This document shows positions 22,086-22,420 of a stretch of DNA of 64,000 bases, piece after piece. Under the pieces are notes generated by a model, which saw only the letters and a list, made by a program, of their open reading frames with translations, was not told the origin of the DNA and ran no database searches. A program made the position numbers and the translations under genes. Every line of letters begins with the position of its first letter. Within the stretch, counting starts at the first letter, position 1. Source of the stretch: Clostridia bacterium (GTDB lineage Bacteria; Bacillota; Clostridia; RUG12999). Where the stretch lies: assembly GCA_017396395.1 (NCBI GenBank), contig JAFQMF010000015.1, positions 1-64,000 of the forward strand, read 5' to 3'.

Positions 22086-22162
22086 GCGCTAGTAGCTCAG
22101 TTGGATAGAGTGTTTGGCTACGAACCAAAAGGTCGGGGGTTCGAATCCCTCCTGGCGTACCA
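22086..22162 (+). tRNA. tRNA-Arg (anticodon ACG)
   Basis: A 77-nt tRNA with acceptor GCGCTAG/CTGGCGT (G1-U72 wobble), D stem GCTC/GAGT, anticodon stem TTTGG/CCAAA around loop CTACGAA (ACG), T arm with TTCGAAT and encoded CCA (22160-22162). It reads CGN codons through inosine at A34. Its last 20 nt and the following terminator are repeated exactly 196 bp downstream. Confidence 0.95.
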
Positions 22163-22194
22163 AAAACCCTCTCGATTTTTTCGAGAGGGTTTTT
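22162..22194 (+). terminator. Terminator of tRNA-Arg
   Basis: AACCCTCTCGA, loop of T residues, TCGAGAGGGTT and a T tract directly after CCA. Because of the 63-bp repeat an identical terminator stands at 22358-22390; the symmetric stem can also stop leftward transcripts. Confidence 0.92.
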
Positions 22195-22357
22195 GTTATA
22201 AATAAAGGGATTCGAACCCTGAGAGGGCAAAAAGCGTTAAGAAAAATAGTCCGGTGGACTGTTTTTCAGCTTTTTGGTGCGAAGACGGGCACCGGAGCGA
22301 GAGCGAGGGTCGGCGAGCAAGAAATATGCGAAGCAGATGAATCCCTCCTGGCGTACC

Positions 22358-22390
22358 AAAAACCCTCTCGATTTTTTCGAGAGGGTTTTT
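22358..22390. terminator. Second copy of the tRNA-Arg terminator
   Basis: Same stem-loop as at 22162-22194, part of the duplicated segment. It lies about 30 bp past the stop of the leftward pyridoxamine kinase gene and, with A and T tracts on both sides, may have become the terminator of that gene. Confidence 0.8.
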
Positions 22391-22420
22391 GTTATAAATA
22401 AGAAAAATTTAACCTTTAAA

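Follow-up and report, generated by a model that had tools for sequence, protein, structure and literature searches.

RtT, originally described as a product processed from the tyrT operon, is known mainly as an enterobacterial oddity; in E. coli it is annotated as ncRNA. When the tyrTV locus of E. coli is read directly, each 178-bp RtT unit terminates in a copy of the tRNA 3' end that is identical at 16 of 16 positions. RtT was detected in 4695 of 5426 E. coli genomes, at 1–14 places in each, and the number of units at tyrV is 0, 1, 2 or 3 among the strains listed. In the zero-unit strain M10, an exact empty site is present between the same genes; such empty sites of E. coli could be deletions between repeats. 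The tRNA-Pro loci of E. coli and Salmonella also show the RtT anatomy, with host-matched stems of their own. At proK of E. coli K-12 (NC_000913.3, near 3708616; L268), a complete and a truncated RtT-type unit can be seen, which are unannotated in the record.

Parts of this layout are found in other known systems. In tRNA-integrated islands, direct repeats of the tRNA 3' end (attL/attR of a tyrosine integrase) flank the insert and the tRNA is restored; a tyrosine-integrase site is expected to share the whole T-loop core. Integron cassettes have a folded site (attC) at the 3' end of each unit, form arrays and occasionally contain cargo genes, while REP/BIME elements, which are associated with the RAYT (Y1) transposase, are small structured intergenic repeats. 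The clostridial family described here is like each of these systems in the respects listed.

The window analysed is a stretch of 64,000 nucleotides from a Clostridia bacterium whose genome is a 1.28-Mb draft of 19 contigs. In it, a clostridial repeat family linked to tRNA 3' ends is represented by a complete unit (~196 bp) followed by a truncated one. The features of the locus are as follows.

22086..22162, plus strand: tRNA-Arg(ACG), the host gene (sequence and tRNA annotation).
22135–22151: T-arm of the tRNA-Arg (5' strand of the T-stem 22135–22139, T-loop 22140–22146, 3' strand of the T-stem 22147–22151).
22152–22162: 3' end of the tRNA-Arg (3' strand of the acceptor 22152–22158, CCA 22160–22162).
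22143..22205, plus strand: first copy of the 63-bp direct repeat (tRNA 3' end and terminator).
22163..22194, plus strand: hairpin resembling a bidirectional intrinsic terminator, between the CCA and the folded body.
22206..22220, plus strand: inverted T-arm, the reverse complement of the host T-loop and T-stem.
22206..22320, plus strand: conserved folded body (match to model R1, 107.6 bits, E 2.5e-22; covariation).
22217..22227, plus strand: short alternative hairpin CCCT-GAG-AGGG (helix 1 of the covariation analysis).
22228–22276 and 22278–22319: long hairpin and second stem-loop of the folded body.
22321..22338, plus strand: variable segment with ATGCGAAGCAGAT, directly 5' of the second tRNA 3' end.
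22339..22358, plus strand: second copy of the tRNA 3' end, GAATCCCTCCTGGCGTACCA.
22359..22401, plus strand: second copy of the terminator, the start of the truncated second unit.

The earlier note described an exact 63-bp duplication of the tRNA-Arg 3' end and terminator, and this is indeed what the locus contains: 22143–22205 and 22339–22401 are identical at 63 of 63 positions, 196 nt apart from start to start, with an insert of 133 bp (22206–22338) between them. The insert opens, as was noticed, with an inverted T-arm; AGGGATTCGAACCC (22206–22219) is a perfect 14-nt reverse complement of 22137–22150. There are more hairpins in the insert than the two that were counted. As for age, a recent local duplication or conversion is suggested by the identity over 63 bp, in agreement with the earlier reading. 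Chance can be rejected and an assembly artefact is strongly argued against, because a perfect match of 63 nt is far longer than chance would produce and because the arrangement is seen again at many loci, behind other tRNAs and in other genomes.

The source genome contains four copies of the family, behind tRNA-Arg, tRNA-Lys(CTT), tRNA-Pro(TGG) and tmRNA. The three other copies are ~74–83% alike to that of the window; in each of them the 3' end of its own tRNA is repeated after the insert (in a decayed form behind tRNA-Pro), and the inverted T-arm resembles the T-arm of its own tRNA. Model R1, built from 24 copies, was used with thresholds of 1e-3 and 1e-6 to scan Clostridia genomes and a sample of the phylum. 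Matches were found in 82 of 391 Clostridia genomes, about a fifth, and in only one genome apart from our own in the phylum sample (299 genomes); the family thus hardly occurs in the phylum outside Clostridia. Each unit-bearing genome scanned closely has 4–14 matches. When 84,980 species genomes were scanned with a pattern, 103 stretches were obtained; the matches listed have Clostridia-type names, and nearly all come from gut or rumen MAGs. The search for the insert in this genome and its relatives, proposed in the earlier note, thus revealed it behind further tRNA genes and in many genomes. The suggestion that the locus is a tRNA-linked repeat unit able to spread or expand is well supported by these copies, as well as by the tandem arrays and the copy-number polymorphism of the E. 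coli counterpart. In Rfam, the insert has no credible match, with only sub-threshold noise at E ≤ 1. Among the phages and plasmids searched, no similar DNA was found; one viral contig matched.

The units have a common order: tRNA, terminator, host-matched inverted T-arm, covarying plus-strand fold of ~115 nt, variable hairpin and a copy of tRNA 59–76. Their length is 185–224 bp (median 204). Eighty of the 129 distinct units lie at most 130 bp 3' of a complete tRNA or tmRNA gene on the same strand, and the host genes of these 80 units represent 29 gene types, distinguished by anticodon or tmRNA tag. Of the remaining units, many belong to arrays as additional members or follow a 3' fragment of a tRNA, which we interpret as the terminus of an island inserted in that tRNA. 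In each of the 80 canonical units, the stretch from the CCA to the inverted arm includes a terminator-like hairpin with a T-run; the median distance to the inverted arm is 49 nt from the CCA and 11 nt from the T-run. In 29 of 68 units the terminator, at times with more sequence, is repeated after the second copy, as in the window, and in half of the units the DNA 3' of the second copy differs from the first terminator. The possibility that the unit is a tRNA-like substrate of RNase P was also considered and rejected: the acceptor complementarity of the unit ends is barely above that of shuffled sequences (2.96 vs. 2.46 of 7).

This anatomy closely follows that of RtT. Both are located behind a tRNA, each unit is closed by an exact copy of the tRNA 3' end, the inverted T-arm has host-matched stems (GAAGG-ATGAGAA-GCTTC at tyrV, GAGG-ATGAGAA-CCTCC at proK) and the units are tandem with the last one truncated; at proK a terminator precedes the body. 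The differences are in the sequence of the body, in the loop of the inverted arm, which is ATGAGAA in RtT and the complement of the host in the clostridial family, and in the range of hosts, since the clostridial family, unlike RtT, is found behind many types of tRNA. At E ≤ 1, the RtT model (RF00391, gathering threshold 45 bits) did not match the window region; it also gave no match in the source genome and two others (G000, G017 and G026), and R1 found nothing significant at the E. coli tyr locus. The models fail to detect each other; therefore, we describe the family as built like RtT, not as RtT. An RtT-like unit scoring 29.1 bits, below the Rfam threshold, was observed at a clostridial tRNA-Tyr (L265, G119:C2:137188-137352). 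It has the shared anatomy, and its genome also holds 13 units of the clostridial family. In the open literature searched, no description of the clostridial family was found. RtT repeats themselves are known but poorly understood.

Correspondence between units and hosts was compared with a null in which tails were swapped from other tRNAs. In 63 of 78 units, the second tRNA 3' end agrees with the host at 16 of 16 positions (null mean 9.1/16), the inverted loop matches the host at 6.85 of 7 positions (5.55 in the null) and the inverted T-stem at 4.26 of 5 (3.14 in the null). At L018, the inverted arm belongs to another tRNA 3' end than that of the host tRNA-Lys. By position, the matching of the second copy starts sharply: it is 0.91 at position 60, 0.88 at position 59 and 0.04 at position 58. 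The same 58|59 junction is equally sharp in 37 simple insertions, in which the terminators differ. Therefore, the duplicated piece is tRNA 59–76, the 3'-terminal 18 nt. The duplication in the window starts two bases further upstream (G57, A58) and also runs through the terminator.

On balance, we consider the unit to be a non-autonomous, probably mobile repeat of tRNA 3' ends, which would enter at 58|59 by means of machinery supplied in trans. We infer insertion into tRNA and tmRNA genes at this junction, probably in the form of a folded single strand. Since the last 18 nt of the tRNA form the start of the unit itself, the tRNA would be restored. That the RtT architecture is seen behind many kinds of tRNA and tmRNA in Clostridia suggests that such elements form a general class, linked to tRNAs and entering by a precise mechanism, and how these repeats choose and rewrite tRNA ends becomes a directly testable question.

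The position of the junction would also be compatible with a retro-type or base-pairing-guided element, in which the tRNA 3' end would prime or guide copying of the unit, while the target tRNA would be chosen by the inverted arm. This version, which we regard as quite improbable, rests on the 18-nt tail (59–76) and a 12-nt arm complementary to the T-loop and T-stem across the junction. The retroviral primer-binding site likewise corresponds to the last 18 nt of a tRNA, and copying halts at the methylated A58.

The covariation of the body is strong: 28 of 39 and 34 of 39 pairs show two-sided change, compared with 0 of 500 shuffles. In the body alignment there are 148 G.T cells against 19 A.C cells; the alignment was fitted to the model, which introduces a mild bias, and frequent U.G pairs are also seen in the unfitted seed. 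The excess of G.T over A.C means that the plus strand, the sense strand of the tRNA, folds. Tandem G.A mismatches, read directly, are recurrent in helix 2. The active form of the fold could be either RNA or single-stranded DNA. Covariation and plus-strand G.U pairs are what a selected structured RNA gene or regulator would have, one whose transcript would arise by read-through from the promoter of the tRNA and then be processed, and whose copies would change only by slippage and gene conversion, without being mobile. The ncRNA annotation of the E. coli counterpart agrees with this, and so does the greater similarity of bodies within a genome than between genomes, which concerted evolution predicts. 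However, a terminator-like hairpin stands ahead of the body in every canonical unit and the inverted arm follows its T-run so closely that there is no room for a promoter. Moreover, one E. coli strain has an exact empty site and no tyrV unit at all, and the host tRNAs are of many kinds, with their ends rewritten in the units. We consider such an RNA gene rather unlikely, and the terminator ahead of the body, together with the lack of promoter space, mildly favours a role at the DNA level.

Similar bodies are found at different tRNAs, in line with the reading that we prefer. Bodies ~92% alike are present at tRNA-Arg(CCG) and tRNA-Leu(GAG) of one MAG, and bodies ~91% alike at tRNA-Pro(GGG) and tRNA-Leu(CAG) of two MAGs; in both cases the tails are host-specific. 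Body similarity is highest within a genome (0.688), slightly raised for the same amino acid across genomes (0.657) and 0.638 otherwise. Bodies may be exchanged between loci through conversion or transposition, and arrays may grow, shrink or vanish by recombination between the repeated tails. Much of the pattern could also be accounted for by ectopic gene conversion plus tandem duplication, with no need for transposition. Among the Clostridia genomes compared, no recent jump was caught. The comparison with sister strains, which the earlier note had also proposed, gave no syntenic filled/empty pair among Clostridia; the tRNA-Arg of genome G001, a tRNA gene that lacks a unit, has other neighbours. 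At L242 (G060:C50:46500-57500), two unit copies identical over 138 bp lie 8 kb apart with no adjoining tRNA. Between them are three large genes, one of them with DUF4838, and a regulator of the LacI type.

In a few units, cargo separates the inverted arm from the tRNA, and the tail still matches the distant tRNA, 0.3–3.5 kb away (3.5 kb at L032, 1.5 kb at L036, 1.6 kb at L120 and 3 kb at L142). Together with the direct repeats of the tRNA 3' end and the constant position of the body at the right end of the unit, this brings to mind the attL/attR scar of a very small element, as the earlier note put it. Such an element would be moved by a tyrosine or serine recombinase, with the body serving as an attachment region recognised in trans, as in an integron cassette. 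The layout does fit, but no recombinase was found: the cargo ORFs read include no integrase, integrase-like matches are not consistently beside units, and the integron integrase (TIGR02249) is above the cut-off in 0 of 30 genomes. In addition, the repeat of the family starts at nucleotide 59 of the tRNA, excluding most of the T-loop, and the body is a covarying fold, not a typical attP. We regard a scar of this kind as unlikely. In comparison with tRNA islands, the clostridial unit is only ~200 bp and has no integrase, and its insert combines a conserved fold with a host-matched inverted arm. Unlike integron cassettes, the family targets tRNA genes and most of its units contain a terminator only; no symmetric pair of attC R/L boxes (RYYYAAC/GTTRRRY) was noticed by eye. 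At L132 and L179, a reading frame resembling by eye the C-terminus of a large serine recombinase ends at the CCA–terminator before the unit. The motif CATCTAAACCGTTCGNCT occurs just ahead of terminators, in cargo or flanks beside tRNAs, at L142 (1676, 3132), L036 (2354) and L212 (1719).

Other candidate movers were also considered. Y1_Tnp was not found in the source genome and shows no clear correlation with the family across 30 genomes; a RAYT/Y1 transposase does not track with the family and was rejected. Unlike REP/BIME, the clostridial repeats are tRNA-bound and have a long covarying fold. PF05635 (23S_rRNA_IVP, a four-helix protein) was found in 17 of the 30 genomes, 14 of 16 unit-rich vs. 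3 of 14 unit-free, and its gene lies twice between a tRNA and a unit (L120, L100). Nevertheless, none of the 30 PF05635 loci fetched contains a unit, and the protein, possibly lineage-linked, is not claimed as the mover. At several PF05635 copies in other places the flank is rich in hairpins (TTTAGCTAAATT...).

With its additional T-arm and tRNA tail directly behind the gene, the unit resembles a decoy attachment site that would shield the tRNA from islands. However, at least nine loci (L019, L034, L037, L069, L093, L107, L109, L128 and L136) have, immediately before the unit, a tRNA 3' fragment that lacks its 5' half and that we interpret as the right end of an island integrated into the real tRNA. 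The loci read so far thus point to integration into the real tRNA and not into the second copy, which makes a decoy highly improbable.

A second structured repeat of ~160 bp ('CGTCG(G/A)A...') was observed directly after or near the tRNA CCA (L212, L216, L018, L039, L104, L118, L086, L136 and L215) and inside the body of a unit (L028, L153). It looks like an independent small mobile repeat.
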